A stretch of 64,000 bases of DNA from Rhodoglobus sp. (GTDB lineage Bacteria > Actinomycetota > Actinomycetes > Actinomycetales > Microbacteriaceae): the NCBI GenBank assembly GCA_025464445.1, contig JAODLY010000027.1, positions 1 to 64,000 of the forward strand. The letters are read 5' to 3'. Below the pieces are notes generated by a model. That model saw nothing but the letters and a program-made list of their open reading frames with translations. It did not search any database and was not told the DNA's origin. Shown piece by piece: positions 15,151 to 50,662 of this stretch; positions within the stretch are counted from its first letter, which is position 1, and the number at the start of each line of letters is the position of its first letter. Made by a program: the position numbers and the translations under genes.

Positions 15151-18100
15151 GTGGCGCGTACAGTTCAGCCACCCCGCGAACCTTCGGGAAAATGCTCGAT
15201 GAGAGTTCCCATGGTCACCTCGACCAAAGCTCGTGTCCGCACCTCCACAACGCTGAAGACCACCCTGAAGGGGATGCTGGCCGCGACGGGTGCTTTCCTG
15301 CTCGAGGTGATTCTCGCATCCGTACCAATACTTCCGCTCCCCAGCGCCGTAGCTGCTCCGACGAGCGTCGACCTGGGCGCGGCGTCCGCATACTCGGTGC
15401 TGGGAGCCTCCACCGTCACCAATACCGGTGCGACGGTGGTCTCGAATGACCTGGGAGTATCGCCGGGAACTGCCATAACCGGCTTTCCCCCAGGCCTCAT
15501 CAATGGCCAGACCCATGCCGCCGACCCCAATGCCGCGGCGGCACAGGCCGCGCTCGCGACGGCATATACGGATGCCGCGGGCCGTACGCCTTCTGCTCCC
15601 GCCGTCGTCGGTGTATACGAACTCGGCGGCACGACCTTCGCGCCGGGCGTGTATGCAGGCGCAAGCTCGCTGGGTATCACCGGGACGGTGACTCTCGACG
15701 GTGGTGGCGATCCCACCGCCGTATTCGTCTTTCAAGCCGGTTCGACTCTCACCACTGCGTCGTCCAGCACCGTCCGCCTTGTGAACGGAGCCCAATCTGC
15801 AAATGTCTTCTGGCAGATCGGCAGCTCGGCAACGCTCGGCACGTACTCCACCTTCGCGGGAACGATCATGGCCCTCGCGTCGGTCACCGTGACCACGGGT
15901 GTCACGGTGTATGGCCGCGCGCTCGCGCAGACGGCTGCTGTGACTCTGGACACCGACACCTTCGTGACTGCTGCGGCGGACAACACGTCACCGTCTCTCA
16001 CCATCACCGGCGGGGCGACGGCGAGCACTACCGATTCGACGCCGACTATCTCTGGAACTTCCGACGAGCTCGGCGGCACCGTGACGGTGACGATCGAAGT
16101 CCAGGCACTGACAGCGACCGTCCAGCCGGATGGTGCCTGGTCGGTGACCGCGGCGACCCTCGCTGACGGCCCGCATACCGCTACCGCGTCGGTCTCGGAC
16201 GCGGCGGGCAATAGCGCGTCCGCCCAGCAGGTACTGACGATCGACGCCACGGCCCCGACGATCACGATCACGGGCGGGGCGACTGTCCTTACCGCCGACT
16301 CGACGCCGACCATCGTGGGAACTTCCGATGCGGTCGGCAGGACTGTGACCGTGACGATCGCGGGCCAGACACTCACCGCCGTCGTGCAATCCGGCGGTGC
16401 CTGGTCGGTCACCGCGGCGACCCTCGCTGATGGCCCGCACACCGCCGCCGCGTCGGTCTCGGACGCCGCAGGCAATGGCGCGTCCGCCCAGCAGGTGCTG
16501 ACGATCGACACGGTAGCGCCCACGGTAACGATCACGGGCGGGGCGACGGCGAGCACTGCCGACTCGACGCCAACCATCGTGGGAACGTCCGATGAGTTCG
16601 GCGCCACCGTGACCGTGACGATAGCGGGGCAGACCCTCACTGCCGTCGTGCAGCCGGACGGCAGCTGGGCTGTGACCGCGGCGACCCTTGCCGATGGCCC
16701 GCATACCGCCATCGCGTCGGTGTCTGATGCGGCGGGCAACAGTGCGTCCGCGCAGCAGGTGCTGACGATCGACGCCACGGCCCCGACGATCACGATCACC
16801 GGCGGGGCGACTGTCCTTACCGCCGACTCGACGCCGACTATCTCGGGAACGTCCGACGAGCTCGGCGCCACCGTGACGGTGACGATCGAAGGCCAGGCAC
16901 TGACAGCGACCGTCCAGCCGGATGGCAGCTGGTCGGTCACCGCGGCGACCCTTGCCGATGGCCCGCATACCGCCATCGCGTCGGTGTCTGATGCGGCGGG
17001 CAACAGTGCGTCCGCGCAGCAGGTGCTGACGATCGACGCCACGGCCCCTGCGATCACGATCACGGGCGGGGCGACTGTCCTTACCGCCGATTCGACGCCA
17101 ACCATCGTGGGAGCCTCCGATGCGGTTGGCAGGACGGTGACCGTGACGATCGCGGGCCAGACGCTCAATGCCGTCGTGCAATCTGGCGGTGCCTGGTCGG
17201 TCACCGCGGCGACCCTCGCTGACGGCCCGCACACCGCAACTGCGTCGGTGTCTGACGCCGCAGGCAATGGCGCGTCCGCCCAGCAGGTGCTGACGATCGA
17301 CGCCACGGCTCCGACGATCACGATCACGGGCGGGGCGGCGGCGAGCACTACCGATTCGACGCCGACTATCTCTGGAACTTCCGACGAGCTCGGCGGCACC
17401 GTGACGGTGACGATCGAAGGCCAGGCACTTACGGCGACAGTCCAGCCCGATGGCAGCTGGTCGGTCACCGCGGCGACCCTCGCCGATGGCCCGCACACCG
17501 CCATGGCGTCGGTGTCGGACGCGGCGGGCAATAGCGCGTCCGCCCAACAGGTGCTGACGATCGACGCCACCGCTCCTGCGATCACGATCACGGGCGGGGC
17601 GGCGGCGAGCACTGCCGATTCGACGCCAACCATCGTGGGAACTTCCGATGCGGTCGGCAGGACGGTCACCGTGACGATAGCGGGCCAGACCCTCACTGCC
17701 GTCGTGCAATCCGGCGGTGCCTGGTCGGTCACAGCGGCGACCCTCGCTGACGGCCCGCATACCGCCATCGCGTCGGTCTCGGACGCCGCAGGCAACAGCG
17801 CATCCGCCCAACAGGTGCTGACGATCGACGCCACGGCCCCTGCGATCACGATCACGGGTGGGGCGACTGTCCTTACCGCCGACTCGACGCCAACGATCTC
17901 GGGCACTTCCGATGCGTTCGCCCGGACGGTCACCGTGACGATAGCTGGCCAGACCCTCACTGCCGTCGTGCAGCCCGACGGCAGCTGGGCTGTGACCGCG
18001 GCGACCCTCGCTGACGGCCCGCATACCGCTACTGCGTCGGTCTCGGACGCGGCGGGCAACAGCGCATCCGCCCAACAGGTACTGACGATCGACGCCACGG

Positions 18101-19368
18101 CCCCGACGATCACGATCACCGGCGGGGCGACTGTCCTTACCGCCGACTCCACCCCGACCATCTCGGGCACCTCGGATGCGGTCGGTCGGACGGTCACCGT
18201 GACGATAGCGGGCCAGACCCTCACTGCCGTCGTTCAATCCGGCGGTGCCTGGTCGGTCACAGCGGCGACTGTCGCTGACGGTCCGCATACCGCCATCGCG
18301 TCGGTGTCGGACGCCGCGGGCAACAGTGCGACGGCCCAACAGGTGCTGACGATCGACACCGTAGCGCCCACAGTAACGATCACTGGCGGGGCCACGGCGA
18401 GCACTGCTGACTCGACGCCAACCATTGTGGGAACTTCCGACGAGCTCGGCGGCACCGTGACGGTGACGATCGCAGGCCAGACACTTACGGCGACAGTCCA
18501 GCCCGATGGCAGCTGGTCGGTCACCTCGGCGACCCTTGCCGATGGCCCGCATACCGCCATCGCGTCGGTGTCGGACGCCGCGGGCAATAGCGCATCCGCT
18601 CAACAGATCCTCACCACCGACACCGTCGCACCCACTGTGACTATCGATGGCGGGGCGACCGCCACCACTGGAGATCTCACGCCGCTCATCTCGGGCACCT
18701 CGGATGCGATCGGCCGCACGGTAACGGTGACGGTGGCTGGCCAGACGCTCACCGGGGTTGTCCAAACCGATGGAACCTGGTCGGTGTCTGCGGCGACCCT
18801 GACGGAAACGGCCCATACGATCACTGCCTCCGTCACCGATCCCGCGGGTAACCTCGGCTCAGTGCAGCAGGTGCTCACGGTCAACTCCACGTTGCCGGTG
18901 ATCCTCATCGCGGGCGGGGCATCGGCGCAAACCCAAGACGCGACGCCGACGATCTCTGGGACGACGGACGCACCGACCGGATCGACAGTCACCGTCACAG
19001 TGGCCGGCCAGACTCTCACGGCGATCGTTACCAGCGGCGGCGGGTGGTCCGTGACCGCCGCGGCATTGGCCGAAGGGCCACACACGGCGGTAGCGTCCGT
19101 CACCGATGGCCTAGGACACACTGGAACGGCGCAGCAGACCCTGACCATCGACACGATCGGGCCGATCTACCCGATGAGTGCGTTTGTCTCCGGGCCCGCC
19201 GCAAACCCGTCATCCGCGTCACAGGGCCTCACCCTGGTGGTGGCCGCAGACTTCTCGCGGACACTCGCGGCCACAGGCGCGGCCAGCACGGTCGTCGCGC
19301 TAGTGGGCCTGGGGCTAATCGCGGGTGGCGCGGCCGGGCTGCTACTTTTTCGTCGGCGCACCCGCTGA
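15151..19368 (+). CDS. giant surface protein: signal peptide, DUF3494 ice-binding-like domain, 12 Ig-like repeats, LAATG-type sorting tail
   Basis: VDLGAASAYSVLGASTVTNTGATVVSNDLGVSPGTAITGFPPGLINGQTHAADPNAAAAQAALATAY...VFVFQAGSTLTTASSSTVRLVNGAQSANVFWQIGSSATLGTYSTFAGTIMALASVTVTTGVTVYGRALAQTAAVTLDTD is DUF3494-like. C-terminus LAATG-hydrophobic-RRRTR. Confidence 0.88.
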   Translation: MARTVQPPREPSGKCSMRVPMVTSTKARVRTSTTLKTTLKGMLAATGAFLLEVILASVPILPLPSAVAAPTSVDLGAASAYSVLGASTVTNTGATVVSNDLGVSPGTAITGFPPGLINGQTHAADPNAAAAQAALATAYTDAAGRTPSAPAVVGVYELGGTTFAPGVYAGASSLGITGTVTLDGGGDPTAVFVFQAGSTLTTASSSTVRLVNGAQSANVFWQIGSSATLGTYSTFAGTIMALASVTVTTGVTVYGRALAQTAAVTLDTDTFVTAAADNTSPSLTITGGATASTTDSTPTISGTSDELGGTVTVTIEVQALTATVQPDGAWSVTAATLADGPHTATASVSDAAGNSASAQQVLTIDATAPTITITGGATVLTADSTPTIVGTSDAVGRTVTVTIAGQTLTAVVQSGGAWSVTAATLADGPHTAAASVSDAAGNGASAQQVLTIDTVAPTVTITGGATASTADSTPTIVGTSDEFGATVTVTIAGQTLTAVVQPDGSWAVTAATLADGPHTAIASVSDAAGNSASAQQVLTIDATAPTITITGGATVLTADSTPTISGTSDELGATVTVTIEGQALTATVQPDGSWSVTAATLADGPHTAIASVSDAAGNSASAQQVLTIDATAPAITITGGATVLTADSTPTIVGASDAVGRTVTVTIAGQTLNAVVQSGGAWSVTAATLADGPHTATASVSDAAGNGASAQQVLTIDATAPTITITGGAAASTTDSTPTISGTSDELGGTVTVTIEGQALTATVQPDGSWSVTAATLADGPHTAMASVSDAAGNSASAQQVLTIDATAPAITITGGAAASTADSTPTIVGTSDAVGRTVTVTIAGQTLTAVVQSGGAWSVTAATLADGPHTAIASVSDAAGNSASAQQVLTIDATAPAITITGGATVLTADSTPTISGTSDAFARTVTVTIAGQTLTAVVQPDGSWAVTAATLADGPHTATASVSDAAGNSASAQQVLTIDATAPTITITGGATVLTADSTPTISGTSDAVGRTVTVTIAGQTLTAVVQSGGAWSVTAATVADGPHTAIASVSDAAGNSATAQQVLTIDTVAPTVTITGGATASTADSTPTIVGTSDELGGTVTVTIAGQTLTATVQPDGSWSVTSATLADGPHTAIASVSDAAGNSASAQQILTTDTVAPTVTIDGGATATTGDLTPLISGTSDAIGRTVTVTVAGQTLTGVVQTDGTWSVSAATLTETAHTITASVTDPAGNLGSVQQVLTVNSTLPVILIAGGASAQTQDATPTISGTTDAPTGSTVTVTVAGQTLTAIVTSGGGWSVTAAALAEGPHTAVASVTDGLGHTGTAQQTLTIDTIGPIYPMSAFVSGPAANPSSASQGLTLVVAADFSRTLAATGAASTVVALVGLGLIAGGAAGLLLFRRRTR
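16003..19173 (+). repeat. 12 in-frame tandem repeats of 264 bp (88 aa) encoding Ig-like domains
   Basis: 'cggggc' anchor recurs at 16011, 16275, 16539, 16803, 17067, 17331, 17595, 17859, 18123, 18387, 18651, 18915: exact 264-bp period. The last unit has one extra codon. Confidence 0.97.
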
Positions 19369-20640: not shown

Positions 20641-21627
20641 ATGAAAACCCGCACAGCGTCTCGACTCGGCCGCGAAGTATCCGTCATCGGCCTCGGCACC
20701 TGGCAGCTCGGAGCCGACTGGGGGGATGTGAGCGAAGCGGATGCCGCGGCGGTGCTCGAGGCATCCGTCGAGTCTGGCGTCACGATCTTCGACACCGCCG
20801 ACGTCTACGGAGACGGCCGGAGCGAGAGCATCATCGGATCCTTCCTGGCGGCGCACCCAGAGCTCGACATCTTCGTCGCCACGAAGATGGGCCGCCGTGT
20901 CGAGCAGAGGGCAGAGTTCTACACGCGGGAGAACTTCAGGGCATGGACCGACCGCTCACGCGCCAACCTGCGCATGGACACGCTCGACCTCGTGCAGCTG
21001 CACTGCCCGCCGACAGAAGTCATCGAGAGCGACCAGGTCTACGACTGGCTCGATGAGCTCGTCGCCGACGGCAGCATCGCCCGCTACGGTGTGAGCGTGG
21101 AGACGAGCGCCCAGGCGCTCGCGGCAATCGCGCGGCCGTCGGTCGCGAGCGTGCAGGTCGTGCTCAATGCGTTCCGGCTCAAGCCGCTCGACGAGGTGCT
21201 GCCCGCCGCACGGGATGCCGGTGTCGCGATCATCGCCCGGGTGCCGCTCGCCTCGGGCCTGCTCAGCGGCAAGTACACGAAAGACACGGTCTTCGCCGCA
21301 GACGACCATCGAACCTACAACCGGCACGGGGAGGCCTTCGACGCCGGCGAGACCTTCTCCGGCGTCGACTTCGAGCAGGGGGTGGCCGCCGCCCAGGAGT
21401 TCGCCGGGTTCGCCGACTCCCAGGGCCTCACGCCGCCGGTCGCCGCCATCGCCTGGCTCGCCCAGCTTCCGGGCGTCACCACGGTGATTCCGGGCGCCCG
21501 CTCGGTGGCGCAGGCGCGCTCGAACGCCTCGGCCGGATCCGTGGCCCAGCTCACGCCGGAGTTCACCGCCCAGGTGAACGCGCTCTACGACAGGTACTTC
21601 CGCAAGGCCGTCCATTCGCGATGGTGA
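20641..21627 (+). CDS. aldo/keto reductase
   Basis: MKTRTASRLGREVSVIGLGTWQLGADWG...IFDTADVYGDGRSESIIGSFL...LDLVQLHCPP. Confidence 0.92.
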   Translation: MKTRTASRLGREVSVIGLGTWQLGADWGDVSEADAAAVLEASVESGVTIFDTADVYGDGRSESIIGSFLAAHPELDIFVATKMGRRVEQRAEFYTRENFRAWTDRSRANLRMDTLDLVQLHCPPTEVIESDQVYDWLDELVADGSIARYGVSVETSAQALAAIARPSVASVQVVLNAFRLKPLDEVLPAARDAGVAIIARVPLASGLLSGKYTKDTVFAADDHRTYNRHGEAFDAGETFSGVDFEQGVAAAQEFAGFADSQGLTPPVAAIAWLAQLPGVTTVIPGARSVAQARSNASAGSVAQLTPEFTAQVNALYDRYFRKAVHSRW

Positions 21628-26806: not shown

Positions 26807-26845
26807 TGTGGACAAGTACGCGAACTTATGCACAGCTGTGGATGA
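26807..26845. promoter_or_regulatory. cluster of three DnaA-box-like 9-mers upstream of nrdA
   Basis: TTGTCCACA (minus, 26807-26815, exact), TTATGCACA (plus, 26826-26834, one mismatch to TTATCCACA), TCATCCACA (minus, 26837-26845, one mismatch). Confidence 0.6.
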
Positions 26846-26850
26846 CACGC

Positions 26851-26898
26851 CCACTACATCTGGTGTTGGCCCCGGGTCAGTGGCACGATATATAGTGG
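26851..26898. promoter_or_regulatory. tandem NrdR-box-like palindromes
   Basis: CCACTACATCTGGTGT (26851-26866) and GCACGATATATAGTGG (26883-26898), centres 32 bp apart; consensus used: ACACTATATATAGTGT-like. Confidence 0.72.
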
Positions 26899-26960
26899 TG
26901 GAACCGCCGGCCGGGGATTACGGTGTGGAACAGGTTTCAGGGGATTTGAGGGAGTTTTTC

Positions 26961-29399
26961 GTGGGAATTACAGTCGTCAAGCGCAGCGGCCAGCGAGAGC
27001 CGTACGACGCCAACAAGATCAACCTCGCGATCGAAGCCGCGAGCGCCGGCCTCGACGAGAACATCACCTGGGTGACCCAGATCGCGTCTGAACTCGAGCT
27101 CACACTGTTCGACGGCATCACCACCCAACAACTGGATGAGGCGGTCATCCAGGTCGCCCTGCAGAACGTGAAAGACGACCCGGCTTTCGACATCGTCGCG
27201 GCCCGGCTGCTGCTGAAGACCATCTACAAGCGCGTGCTCGGCGACTACGAGACCGCCGCAGAGCTCAAGGAGCTGCACCGCGAGCACTTCGCCGCCAATA
27301 TCGCGCGCGGCGTCGACGAGGGGTTGCTCGACTCGCGGCTCACCCAGCTCTTCGACGTCGACTATCTCGCCACCCAGCTCGAGCCGGCGCATGATGAGCT
27401 GCTCAAGTACATCGGTGTCGTGACCCTCAACAACCGCTACGGCATCAAGGGCCGCAATGGCGACGCCCTCGAGGTGCCGCAGTACTTCTGGATGCGCATC
27501 GCCATGGGGCTGTCCCTCAACGAGGCCGACCCGACGAAGGCCGCGCTCGCGTTCTACGAGAAGATGTCCAGCCTCGAGTACCTGGCCGCCGGATCCACTC
27601 TCGTCAACGCGGGCACCGTGTACCCGCAGCTCGCGAACTGCTTCGTCATGGAGATGCAGGACGACATGGAGCACATCGCGAAGACGACCCGCGACGTCAT
27701 GTGGCTGACCAAGGGCACCGGCGGCATCGGACTGTCCGTGACCAAGCTGCGCGCGCAGGGCTCGCCGATCCGCTCCAACAACACGACATCGACGGGCCCC
27801 ATCCCGTTCATGCACACGATCGACTCGATCCTGCGCGCGGTGAGCCGCGGCGGCAAGAAGTTCGGAGCGCTGTGCTTCTACATGGAGAACTGGCACCTCG
27901 ACTTCCCCGAGTTCCTGGACCTCCGCCAGAACTCCGGGGATCCCTATCGGCGCACCCGCACCGCCAACACGGCCGTGTGGATCAGCGACGAGTTCATGAA
28001 GCGCGTGCAGGCCGACGACGACTGGTACCTGTTCGACCCGCTCGAAGTGCAGGACCTCAACGAGCTCTACGGCAAGGCGTTCTCCGCCCGCTACAACGAG
28101 TACGTCGCCATGGCCGAGGCCGGCGAGCTGCGCATGTTCAAGAAGATCACGGCGCGCGAGCAGTTCAAGGCGATCCTCATCTCCTTGCAGACCACCAGTC
28201 ACCCGTGGCTGACCTGGAAAGACACGATCAACAACCGCGCCCTCAACAACAACACGGGCACGATCCACCTCTCCAACCTGTGCACAGAGATCACGCTGCC
28301 GCAGGACGAAGACAACGTCTCGGTCTGCAACCTGGCGTCGATCAACCTGTCCCAGCACCTGGACGATGCCGGTCGTTTGGACTTCTCCAAGATCGAGGCC
28401 TCCGCGCGCCTGGCCGTGCGCCAGCTCGACAACCTCATCGACATCACGCGTTCGAGCGTGAAGGAGGCGGACTTCTCCAACCAGCAGAATCGCGCGGTCG
28501 GCCTCGGGGTCATGGGCTTCACCGACATCATCGAGAAGCTCGGCATCAGCTATGAGAGCGAAGAGGCCTACGACCTCGTCGACGAGATCATGGAGCACGT
28601 CTCATACGCGGCGATCGACGCGAGCGCGGAGCTCGCCAAGGAGCGTGGCGCGTACCCGAACTTCCAGGGCAGCCGCTGGTCTGAGGGTCTCGTTCCCCTC
28701 GACTCGATAGCGCTCACCGAAGCCGACCGCGGGGTGGAGATCAAGGTCAACCGCAAGACCCGTTTGGACTGGGATGCCCTGCGCCTCAAGGTCAAGGGCG
28801 GCATGCGCAACGCGACGCTCATGGCGATCGCGCCCACGGCATCCATTGGGCTTGTCGCGGGAACCACGCCGGGGCTCGACCCGCAGTTCTCGCAGATCTT
28901 CAGCCGCGCGACGAGCAACGGCAAGTTCCTCGAGGTCAACCGCAACCTCGTCGCCGACCTGCAGAAGCTCGGGATCTGGGACTCGACGAAGGAGGCCATC
29001 CTGCGCAGCCAGGGCGACATCCAGGGCATCGCGTCGATCCCGGACGCGATCAAGGCGACGTACAAGACGAGCTTCCAGCTCTCGCCGTACGCATTCCTCG
29101 AGGTCTCCGCGCGGGCCCAGAAGTGGATCGACCAGGCGATCAGCCGCAACATGTACCTCGAGACCCGTGACCTCGGCGACATGATGGACATCTACTTCGC
29201 GGCCTGGGAGCGCGGCGTGAAGACGACGTATTACCTGCACATGAAACCGCGCCACACCGCCGAGCAGTCCACGGTCAAGGTCAACAAGTCCGAGGACATC
29301 GTTGCTTCAGCCACTCCCGTGGAGACGGCCGTCGCATCCACTGGCGCAGCTCCCGCTCGTCGCGGCTTCGGCGGACTGGCACCGAAGGCGGGCAACTGA
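26961..29399 (+). CDS. nrdA: class I ribonucleoside-diphosphate reductase alpha subunit (N-terminal ATP-cone), ORF lacking the C-terminal Cys pair
   Basis: GTG start; ATP-cone VVKRSGQREPYDANKINLAIEAAS; QLANCFVME, NLCTEITLPQDEDNVSVCNLASINLS, TTYYLHMKPR. ORF ends ...RRGFGGLAPKAGN. Confidence 0.96.
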   Translation: MGITVVKRSGQREPYDANKINLAIEAASAGLDENITWVTQIASELELTLFDGITTQQLDEAVIQVALQNVKDDPAFDIVAARLLLKTIYKRVLGDYETAAELKELHREHFAANIARGVDEGLLDSRLTQLFDVDYLATQLEPAHDELLKYIGVVTLNNRYGIKGRNGDALEVPQYFWMRIAMGLSLNEADPTKAALAFYEKMSSLEYLAAGSTLVNAGTVYPQLANCFVMEMQDDMEHIAKTTRDVMWLTKGTGGIGLSVTKLRAQGSPIRSNNTTSTGPIPFMHTIDSILRAVSRGGKKFGALCFYMENWHLDFPEFLDLRQNSGDPYRRTRTANTAVWISDEFMKRVQADDDWYLFDPLEVQDLNELYGKAFSARYNEYVAMAEAGELRMFKKITAREQFKAILISLQTTSHPWLTWKDTINNRALNNNTGTIHLSNLCTEITLPQDEDNVSVCNLASINLSQHLDDAGRLDFSKIEASARLAVRQLDNLIDITRSSVKEADFSNQQNRAVGLGVMGFTDIIEKLGISYESEEAYDLVDEIMEHVSYAAIDASAELAKERGAYPNFQGSRWSEGLVPLDSIALTEADRGVEIKVNRKTRLDWDALRLKVKGGMRNATLMAIAPTASIGLVAGTTPGLDPQFSQIFSRATSNGKFLEVNRNLVADLQKLGIWDSTKEAILRSQGDIQGIASIPDAIKATYKTSFQLSPYAFLEVSARAQKWIDQAISRNMYLETRDLGDMMDIYFAAWERGVKTTYYLHMKPRHTAEQSTVKVNKSEDIVASATPVETAVASTGAAPARRGFGGLAPKAGN

Positions 29400-29488
29400 T
29401 GGACAGGGTCGCGCTATTCAACAACACTGCCGAATACGAGGTTCCGGTCGACCCCATGGACGACCTGCAGTGCGACAGCTGCCAGTAG
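29399..29488 (+). CDS. 29-aa ORF with a CxxC tail resembling the redox-active C-terminus of class I NrdA
   Basis: ATG overlaps the nrdA stop (TGATG); MDRVALFNNTAEYEVPVDPMDDLQCDSCQ*; lies between nrdA and nrdB. Confidence 0.65.
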   Translation: MDRVALFNNTAEYEVPVDPMDDLQCDSCQ

Positions 29489-29500
29489 GAGACTGAAGTC

Positions 29501-30511
29501 ATGGGAATCCTCGGAACCGGCCTGCAAGAGGGCCTGCTGCTCAAACCCATCCGCTACCAGTGGGCGATGGACCTGTACGACCAGGCTGTCGCCAACACCT
29601 GGTTCCCCAACGAGATCCAGCTCGGGGAAGATATCGCCGACTTCAAGAAGATGACGGATGAGGAACGTCACGCCGTGACCTTCCTGATGAGCTACTTCAA
29701 CCCGAACGAACTGCTCGTCAACAAGGCACTCGCGTTCGGCGTCTACCCATACGTGAATGCGGCCGAGTGCAGCCTCTACCTCGCGAAGCAGATGTGGGAG
29801 GAGGCCAACCACTGCATGAGCTTCGAGTACGTGCTCGAGACCTTCCCCATCGATCGCGAGGCCGCCTACGGGGCGCACGCAAACATCCCGTCGATGGCCC
29901 GCAAGGAGGAGTTCGAGGTCAAGTACATCCGCCGGATGACGGAACAGACCCTCGACATCACCACCACTGAGGGCAAGAAGGACTTCGTGCGCAACCTCGT
30001 GGCGTACAACGTGATCCTCGAGGGCGTCTGGTTCTACTCGGGCTTCATGGTGGCCCTGAGCTTCCGGCAGCGCAACCTGCTGCGCAACTTCGGATCGCTC
30101 ATGGACTGGGTGGTGCGCGACGAGTCGCTGCACCTCAAGTTCGGCATCAACCTCATCCTCACCGTGCTCGAGGAGAACCCCGACCTGCAGACCGAGGAAT
30201 TCGCCACAGAGATCAAGCAGATGATCCTGGATGCCGTGGCGATGGAAGAGGAATACAACCAGGACCTGCTGCCCGGCGGCATCCTCGGCCTCAACGCCAC
30301 TTACATCAACCAGTACGTGAAGTACCTCGCCGACCGCCGGCTCGAGGAGCTCGGGTTCGAGGCGCACTACAACGTCAGCAACCCGGCGAAGTGGATGGCC
30401 GCCGCCAATGACACCCTCCAGCTCGTGAACTTCTTCGAGTCGACGAACACGTCGTACGAGTCGAACGCTTCGGCTGTTTCGAAGAGCCCGGCGTCGACGA
30501 AGAAGGAGTAG
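29501..30511 (+). CDS. nrdB: ribonucleoside-diphosphate reductase beta subunit, class Ic-like
   Basis: Ferritin-like ligands E70, E101, H104, E174, E208, H211, with F108 at the radical-Tyr position (WEEANHCMSFEYV). Confidence 0.95.
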   Translation: MGILGTGLQEGLLLKPIRYQWAMDLYDQAVANTWFPNEIQLGEDIADFKKMTDEERHAVTFLMSYFNPNELLVNKALAFGVYPYVNAAECSLYLAKQMWEEANHCMSFEYVLETFPIDREAAYGAHANIPSMARKEEFEVKYIRRMTEQTLDITTTEGKKDFVRNLVAYNVILEGVWFYSGFMVALSFRQRNLLRNFGSLMDWVVRDESLHLKFGINLILTVLEENPDLQTEEFATEIKQMILDAVAMEEEYNQDLLPGGILGLNATYINQYVKYLADRRLEELGFEAHYNVSNPAKWMAAANDTLQLVNFFESTNTSYESNASAVSKSPASTKKE

Positions 30512-31065
30512 TGCTCCGCCTCGAGACCGTCGAGTGGGGCGACCCTCGAGCGGTCGCCCTTCGCGACGCCATGAACGCGGAAACCGCCGCGATGTACGCG
30601 GAGTTCACGGCGCAGCGCACCCCGGAGCAGGTCGCGGCGATCGACGATGCGCTGTCAGTCGACCCCGCGACGATCGTGCACACGATCATCGCTCTCGACG
30701 ATGGGGTGCCGCTCGGCCACGCGGCGCTTCGCCCGGTCTCGACAAGCTCGACCAACGGCGTTGTGGGCTCGACCAACGGCGTTGCGGGCTCGACCAACGG
30801 CGTTGCGGGCTCGACCAGCGGGGTGCTCGAGGTGAAGAAAGTGTTCGTGGCGCCGCAGGCACGGGGCAGGGGCGTGGCGAAGGTGATGCTGGCAGAACTC
30901 GAGTCTTTTGCGGTGGCTCGGGGTGTGGCATCCCTCGTGCTTCAGACCGGGCCGCTACAGGTCGAGGCGATCGCCCTCTACCTCAAGCTCGGCTACCTGC
31001 CCATCGGCAAGTTCGGCAAGTACGGAGCCATACCCGGTGCCCTGTGCTACGAGAAGACCTTGTGA
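30511..31065 (+). CDS. GNAT-family N-acetyltransferase
   Basis: VLEVKKVFVAPQARGRGVAKVMLAELESFAVARGVASLVLQTGPLQVEAIALYLKLGYLPIGKFG; start overlaps the nrdB stop by 1 nt. Confidence 0.9.
   Translation: MLRLETVEWGDPRAVALRDAMNAETAAMYAEFTAQRTPEQVAAIDDALSVDPATIVHTIIALDDGVPLGHAALRPVSTSSTNGVVGSTNGVAGSTNGVAGSTSGVLEVKKVFVAPQARGRGVAKVMLAELESFAVARGVASLVLQTGPLQVEAIALYLKLGYLPIGKFGKYGAIPGALCYEKTL
30747..30830 (+). repeat. 4 x 21-bp in-frame tandem repeat inside the GNAT gene
   Basis: CTCGACCAACGGCGTTG[T/C]GGG x3 plus one degenerate unit, encoding (STNGVxG)n. Confidence 0.93.
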
Positions 31066-50068: not shown

Positions 50069-50662
50069 CTACCTCACGGTTTTGCGGGAGGTGATCACTC
50101 CCGTGTCGAAGCCGAGCAGGTGCAGCCCGCCGTGGAAGCGGGCGTGTTCGATCTTTATGCAGCGGTCCATGACCACCGCGAGGCCCTTCGACTCGCCGTA
50201 GATCGCGGCATCCTGGTTCCAGATGCCCAATTGCACCCAGATGGTCTTGGCACCGACGGCGAGCACCTCATCGATGACCGAGGGGATGTCGCTGCCCTTG
50301 CGGAACACGTCCACGATGTCTGGCACCTCGGGCAGGTCGGCGAGGGACTTGTACGACTTCTGGCCGAGGATCTCGTCGACCATCGGGTTGACGAAGTAGA
50401 CGCGGTAGTCGCTGGACTGCAGCAGGTAGGTGGCGACGAAGTAGCTCGAGCGTGCCGCGTTCGGTGATGCGCCGACGATCGCTATCGACTTGGCGCGACG
50501 CAGGATACCGAGACGCTCTTTTGCGCTGGGACCTACCCAACTGCGCTGCGACTTGAGCAGCTTCGCAAGCGGCGAACTCGCCGGGATGTCACAGGTCAGC
50601 CCGTTTGCCATGACAACTGTCTCGTTGGTCGAGTCTGTCGAGACCTGGGTAGCAGTACTCAT
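50069..50662 (-). CDS. CoA-binding protein (YccU-like)
   Basis: LGILRRAKSIAIVGASPNAARSSYFVATYLLQSSDYRVYFVNPMVDEILGQKSYKSLADLPEVPDIVDVFRKGSDIPSVIDEVLAVGAKTIWVQLGIWNQDAA. Confidence 0.94.
   Translation of the reverse strand: MSTATQVSTDSTNETVVMANGLTCDIPASSPLAKLLKSQRSWVGPSAKERLGILRRAKSIAIVGASPNAARSSYFVATYLLQSSDYRVYFVNPMVDEILGQKSYKSLADLPEVPDIVDVFRKGSDIPSVIDEVLAVGAKTIWVQLGIWNQDAAIYGESKGLAVVMDRCIKIEHARFHGGLHLLGFDTGVITSRKTVR

Follow-up and report, generated by a model that had tools for sequence, protein, structure and literature searches.

Class I ribonucleotide reductase (RNR) of many Microbacteriaceae appears to work with a redox tail that is detached from its catalytic subunit. The nrdA–nrdB locus (Table 1) in the 64,000-nt window, by which we mean the whole stretch of DNA analyzed here, is best explained by the combination of a class Ic-type NrdB, an NrdA without its tail, and a redox tail that would act in trans as a microprotein, copies of which occur on phages and plasmids. 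We put the probability of this reading, drawn from sequence comparison, at roughly 0.8. For the family at large, we regard it as probable that the redox arm of class I RNR is a free, trans-acting microprotein that is encoded at more than one locus, controlled by NrdR, and acquired by phages and plasmids, for which it would be a minimal auxiliary gene with which to boost or take over dNTP synthesis in the host.

Table 1. Features of the nrdA–nrdB locus, in window coordinates
Feature	Position	Strand	Basis
nrdA, R1 catalytic subunit with ATP cone, without C-terminal CxxC tail	26808..29399	+	profile matches, Cys listing
NrdR-like box 1, CCACTACATCTGGTGT, upstream of nrdA	26851..26866	+	weight-matrix pair score
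NrdR-like box 2, CACGATATATAGTGGT	26884..26899	+	16 bp spacer to box 1, in NrdR register
Possible ribosome-binding site of tail ORF, GAAGGCGGG	29384..29392	+	inside nrdA end; by eye only
Tail microprotein ORF, MDRVALFNNTAEYEVPVDPMDDLQCDSCQ (stop)	29399..29488	+	29 codons, −1 frame relative to nrdA, start overlaps nrdA stop (TGATG)
nrdB, R2 subunit with class Ic-type site	29501..30511	+	translation, profile matches, alignment to Chlamydia R2c

In class I RNR, turnover is generally taken to include the reduction of the active-site disulfide by a covalent tail. Ordinary enzymes of this class re-reduce the active site through a CxxC on a flexible tail at the C-terminus (PMC5704485, PMC9669993), and a CXXC was present in 1737 of 2022 class I sequences (PMC9531940). 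The NrdA encoded in the window belongs to class I by its match to NCBIfam NF005101 and by the adjacent R2 gene. Its C-terminus reads ...PARRGFGGLAPKAGN up to the stop codon (ending in ...GGLAPKAGN) and contains no CxxC. Past the likely start, cysteines occur at positions 278, 356, 492, and 507 (ORF numbering) with none after 507, and the covalent C-terminal CxxC of a class I NrdA is absent here. The listed start codon, GTG 26808, precedes the pair of NrdR boxes, and translation probably begins at or near GTG 26925 instead, which would give an NrdA of about 824 residues. Outside Microbacteriaceae, a near-identical motif forms the end of NrdA itself, as in ...GGVACPVDPMEALQCESCQ (genome G045) and ...CPVDPQERLQCESCQ, and it is likewise fused to NrdA in Demequina, Actinotalea, an Aeromicrobium MAG, and a Ktedonobacteraceae MAG. 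What the window shares with ordinary class I enzymes is the terminal CxxC, near-identical to the motif fused in sister families; what differs is that the tail is not covalently part of NrdA. A third cysteine (A-C-P-[VI]-D-P) is found in the fused tails (L029, L057–L078) and in many viral copies (such as L154, L155, and L173), at the place where the chromosomal microproteins read V-P-V-D-P.

The partner subunit, NrdB (336 residues), matches NCBIfam NF007186 with 405 bits (cut-off 237) as well as Pfam PF00268. The translation confirms the ligand positions Glu70, Glu101, His104, Glu174, Glu208, and His211 given by the first-pass annotation, including Glu instead of Asp as the first ligand beside the other five, and places Phe108 where a radical tyrosine would stand. 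The same annotation had described the spacings as identical to those of class Ic R2 from Chlamydia trachomatis (R2c). The alignment bears this out: a phmmer comparison with R2c (1syy, E 3.7e-70) contains a single two-residue gap before Glu70 and none after, and residues 70, 101, 104, 108, 174, 208, and 211 fall on Chlamydia Glu89, Glu120, His123, Phe127, Glu193, Glu227, and His230. All seven residues are kept in 76 of 76 other loci of the NrdB clade (80–98% identity, six actinobacterial families), and because of this invariance the pattern is not due to chance. An alignment shift that supplies a radical tyrosine, which had been named as part of what would overturn the assignment, did not emerge; Tyr110, two residues past Phe108, aligns with a tyrosine at the same place in Chlamydia R2c and was rejected as a shifted radical tyrosine on that ground. 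In the genome (2.84 Mb, 99.6% complete), this nrdAB is the only class I RNR detected, with one R2 gene and one R1 gene. Trp34 and Tyr319 align with Chlamydia Trp51 and Tyr338, and Trp203 takes the place of Chlamydia Tyr222, which Jiang and co-workers reportedly identified in 2008 as an electron relay in cofactor activation. Neither this exchange nor the tail-less NrdA had been described in the first-pass annotation.

R2 proteins of class Ic carry the pair Phe/Glu, those of class Id Tyr/Glu, and those of classes Ia and Ib Tyr/Asp (PMC8463856). With Phe108 at the radical-tyrosine position and Glu70 as first of six ligands, NrdB carries neither the Tyr/Glu pair of class Id nor the Tyr/Asp pair of classes Ia and Ib and is assigned by this sequence criterion to class Ic. 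Since Phe/Glu defines this class, the oxidant of NrdB is very likely metal-based and free of a tyrosyl radical. The nearest solved proteins by sequence are C. trachomatis R2c (240 bits) and then the R2 protein of Saccharopolyspora erythraea (6y2n, 222 bits), followed by other R2 proteins at 129 bits or less among the matches listed. The same two folds come closest to an AlphaFold2 model of NrdB, which is supporting evidence only, given its low confidence (mean pLDDT 60). With Chlamydia R2c (1syy, 4d8f, 4m1i), NrdB shares all ligands, the phenylalanine, the first-ligand glutamate, the spacings, and the equivalents of Trp51 and Tyr338; it differs in overall sequence (37% identity) and in Trp203 for Tyr222. 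Glu/Phe also occurs in a second actinobacterial R2 group, 35% identical (L079, L080, L082–L084), and presumably in 6y2n, and Asp/Tyr in an actinobacterial class Ia-like group (L081 and others).

Phylogenetic placement, which had been proposed as a check, sets the window clade apart without deciding its closest relatives. A tree of 37 R2 proteins resolves three clades: that of the window, one of Chlamydia and actinobacterial Phe/Glu proteins, and one of Tyr/Asp proteins. An approximately unbiased (AU) test rejects neither the union of all Phe/Glu R2 proteins in one clade (p 0.47) nor a sister relation of the window clade to the Tyr/Asp actinobacterial R2 proteins (p 0.62), so the biochemistry of the Chlamydia enzyme cannot be transferred by descent alone. 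Of the earlier proposal of a Mn(IV)/Fe(III) or other tyrosyl-free cofactor, the tyrosyl-free part is supported by the invariant Phe/Glu pair and by R2c as nearest solved protein, and the identity of the metals is read from the sequence, where Mn/Fe appears most likely. A tyrosyl-free NrdB with a Mn/Mn or Fe/Fe pair seems a rather unlikely alternative. It would fit the position of the clade apart from that of Chlamydia and the replacement of Tyr222 by Trp203, and class Id shows that a metal-based Mn2 oxidant is possible; class Id, however, carries Tyr/Glu (PMC8463856), whereas both the Phe/Glu pair and the spacings of NrdB match the Mn/Fe enzyme, its nearest solved protein.

One further likeness concerns Tropheryma whipplei, which we take to belong to the same GTDB family as the window: the NrdB of G064, a genome of T. 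whipplei size, is 85% identical to the window protein. The RNR of T. whipplei was previously listed as class Ic (PMC4009431), so the class Ic claim for NrdB alone is close to what is known. What it adds is a large actinobacterial branch, which may represent an independent origin of a tyrosyl-free R2. To our knowledge, there is no biochemistry on this branch.

The CxxC missing from NrdA is found in the small ORF between nrdA and nrdB, the product of which has 29 residues with a single pair of cysteines and ends in ...PVDPMDDLQCDSCQ. This split form, with the tail ORF separate from NrdA, is present at 87 loci in about 40 genera of Microbacteriaceae, with family and genus assigned from record titles and GTDB groupings. 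The ORF lies in the −1 frame relative to nrdA at 76 of these loci, in frame behind the stop at 7, and in the +1 frame at 4. Its start codon, taken as the one nearest the nrdA stop, is located at −1 or +2 nt from the first base of this stop in 66 of the 87 cases and nearby in the remainder. The microproteins range from 20 to 57 residues (median 27). Over the last 17 codons, pS is 0.59 and pN 0.11, a ratio of 0.19 that contrasts with 1.87 and 2.46 in the other frames, and P, D, P, M, C, C, and Q are invariant. These values point to a real gene under purifying selection. Searches of the microprotein against Pfam, PHROGs, NCBIfam, and PDB gave no match above threshold (weak Pfam matches fell below cut-off), and the genes are mostly unannotated or called hypothetical.

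Tail and NrdB go together across the family. The tail motif was detected in 135 of 300 genomes, comprising every one of the 132 that have this NrdB and 3 of the 168 that lack it, counts that are lower bounds since the search sees only tails fitting one pattern; a reversed-pattern control yielded zero among the matches listed. Fisher's test gives p 4e-83 for the co-occurrence, a value that ignores relatedness, and mosaics within genera agree: G019, G171, and G181 have an R1 of about 30% identity and no tail motif. The three motif-positive genomes without this NrdB are 77–93% complete, and none of them yielded an NrdA of this type. As a separate observation, the type of RNR is mosaic in the family, with this NrdB in 132 of the 300 genomes. 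G019, from the window's own genus, is among those without it and contains an NrdF-like R2 (about 24% identical) and an R1 (31% identical) with no tail motif.

Most motif-positive genomes contain at least two copies of the tail. The second copy in the genome of the window lies on another contig (G000:C8:12022-12060, L140; MDNDSDNVGGYAVPVDPMDLLQCDSCQ, then stop) and has the layout of a stand-alone gene, with a ribosome-binding site, a pair of NrdR boxes, and a GC-rich hairpin followed by T residues downstream. Loss of the operonic copy is seen in G064 (0.93 Mb), the NrdA of which, like that of four g76 genomes, has no cysteine in its C-terminal region. No operonic tail was found between nrdA and nrdB in G064 or G172. 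A single exact tail match was found in each of G064, G103, G226, and G273; for G064 and G103, this match is the stand-alone gene. In G172, one additional match lies on a different contig (L144). G064 thus differs from the window in having no tail ORF between nrdA and nrdB and in keeping only the stand-alone copy.

NrdA and stand-alone tail genes share a putative control by NrdR. The box pair upstream of nrdA scores 38.9, as against 8.0 for the best of 200 shuffles, and is the only NrdR-box pair that a regex search found in the window. The stand-alone tail genes examined score 29–55 (8 for the best shuffle of 200); as these copies served to build the matrix, their own scores are partly circular, and the nrdA promoters are the independent test. 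Most other nrdA genes of the family also carry a box pair, whereas tail copies of other kinds score below 0 with the same matrix. A strict-regex search upstream of these other nrdA genes detected no boxes; the weight matrix with flexible spacing did. In NrdR register, the spacer measures 17 bp (as at L140; in some cases 16) at the stand-alone gene and 16 bp at most nrdA genes; the optimal spacing of NrdR boxes is 15–17 bp (PMC12051234). NrdR itself is encoded in the genome (G000:C10:30373-30798; 149 bits, cut-off 124.65). With a box pair, a spacer of 15–17 bp, and NrdR present, nrdA and the stand-alone tail gene are both predicted members of an NrdR regulon.

The tail is also carried by mobile elements. 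Its pattern occurs on at least 120 stretches of IMG/VR contigs, and 78 of the 80 stretches that were read show no similarity to nrdA or nrdB within the fetched stretch. Among isolated phages, Clavibacter phages CMP1 (MGDGEYTVPQDPMDEFQCDSCQ) and CN1A and Pontimonas phage phiPsal1 contain an unannotated tail. CMP1 encodes a thymidylate synthase, and the parts of it that were searched show no similarity to NrdA or NrdB. With 22–30 residues, the tail gene of such phages is among the smallest candidate phage auxiliary metabolic genes. About 20 plasmids, including those from Clavibacter, Leifsonia, and Gryllotalpicola, have copies as well. On two Clavibacter plasmids, the gene follows an ArdC-like gene and directly precedes the gene for a single-stranded DNA-binding protein, and one plasmid copy of 33 residues is annotated as ribonucleotide-diphosphate reductase subunit beta. 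On several contigs (L293, L295, L296, L299, L309, L405, and L412), the motif ends a small protein that is larger than the tail and looks unrelated (e.g. MSTLITDSNAVLTFTGQW...), where the tail has the look of a portable module. Pseudanabaena phage Pan2 (L451, record 21250-21333) has a similar ORF of 27 residues (MDDFDTIDGFACPNDPADLVSCESCQ) annotated as hypothetical; judging from this cyanobacterial phage, free tails may exist outside actinobacteria.

We envisage the following mechanism. NrdB would store an oxidizing equivalent on its metal pair, most likely Mn/Fe, and pass it to NrdA via Trp34 and Tyr319. NrdA holds the catalytic cysteines but not the CxxC arm by which the active-site disulfide is ordinarily reduced again after each turnover. 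This arm would be made separately from two kinds of gene, the operonic one, where ribosomes probably reinitiate at the nrdA stop, and the stand-alone one behind NrdR boxes. The microprotein could then dock on NrdA, with the conserved Y-x-V-P-x-D-P-M-D-x-L-Q segment as its contact, and its CxSCQ end would reduce the disulfide; thioredoxin or another redoxin of this sort would recycle it. Phage and plasmid copies would presumably raise the dNTP supply. Translation of the tail, its binding to NrdA, and its redox role, like the metals of NrdB, are features that we infer. Two considerations count against a trans-acting tail: once free, it would have to make up for the high local concentration that a tethered tail enjoys, and phiPsal1 has CTSC instead of C[DE]SC.

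The microprotein could instead have evolved from the tail into a regulator of RNR, such as an inhibitor or an assembly factor, with NrdA reduced directly by a redoxin. Its tiny size, several copies per genome, phage and plasmid copies, and predicted control by NrdR would suit this role, yet its CxSCQ end hardly differs from that of the catalytic tails fused to NrdA in sister families, and every genome with a tail-less NrdA keeps at least one copy; we judge this quite unlikely. A conventional enzyme, with tail and NrdA joined during translation through programmed −1 frameshifting or readthrough of the stop codon, seems very improbable. The prevalence of the −1 frame close to the nrdA stop speaks for such a route, but the mixture with frames 0 and +1, the retained start codons, and the stops directly or a few codons before the start at some loci (L037, L092, L106) make it unlikely as a general one, as do the stand-alone copies far from nrdA, which are the sole copies found in several genomes. 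That an assembly or sequencing error broke nrdA has next to no likelihood: one genome alone would resemble a frameshifted nrdA, and L028 is probably such an indel, but the comparative data (87 loci in about 40 genera, the low pN/pS, and a second copy elsewhere behind boxes of its own) contradict this reading.

The nearest precedent for a detached tail is the split class II RNR NrdJa+b of Pseudomonas aeruginosa, where re-reduction of the active site likewise falls to a separately encoded part (PMC5704485). That system belongs to class II, with a B12-dependent subunit and a folded cysteine-rich domain as the detached part, whereas we find a class I NrdA, an adjacent R2, and a 29-residue tail in the window, and peptides of 20–57 residues, predicted NrdR control, and phage and plasmid copies for the tail in general. 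In the literature searched, which covered few subscription journals, we found no previous account of a class I tail encoded apart from NrdA. A large part of one bacterial family would appear to make its DNA precursors in this way, and the detachment makes the function of the tail testable by addition of a peptide.

Several minor observations concern the surroundings of the locus. The gene for a GNAT acetyltransferase (window 30511-31065) overlaps the stop region of nrdB at its last base (TAGTG) and may be translationally coupled to nrdB. Within this gene, a tandem repeat of GCTCGACCAACGGCGTTGCGG (3.6 copies, 30737-30821) opens with TCTCGACAAGCTCGACCAACGG, to which there is one diverged match at 50622. 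Inside an ORF of 1405 residues (15151-19368), which probably encodes a repetitive surface protein, a 264-bp unit is repeated in tandem about 10 times (16031-18606).
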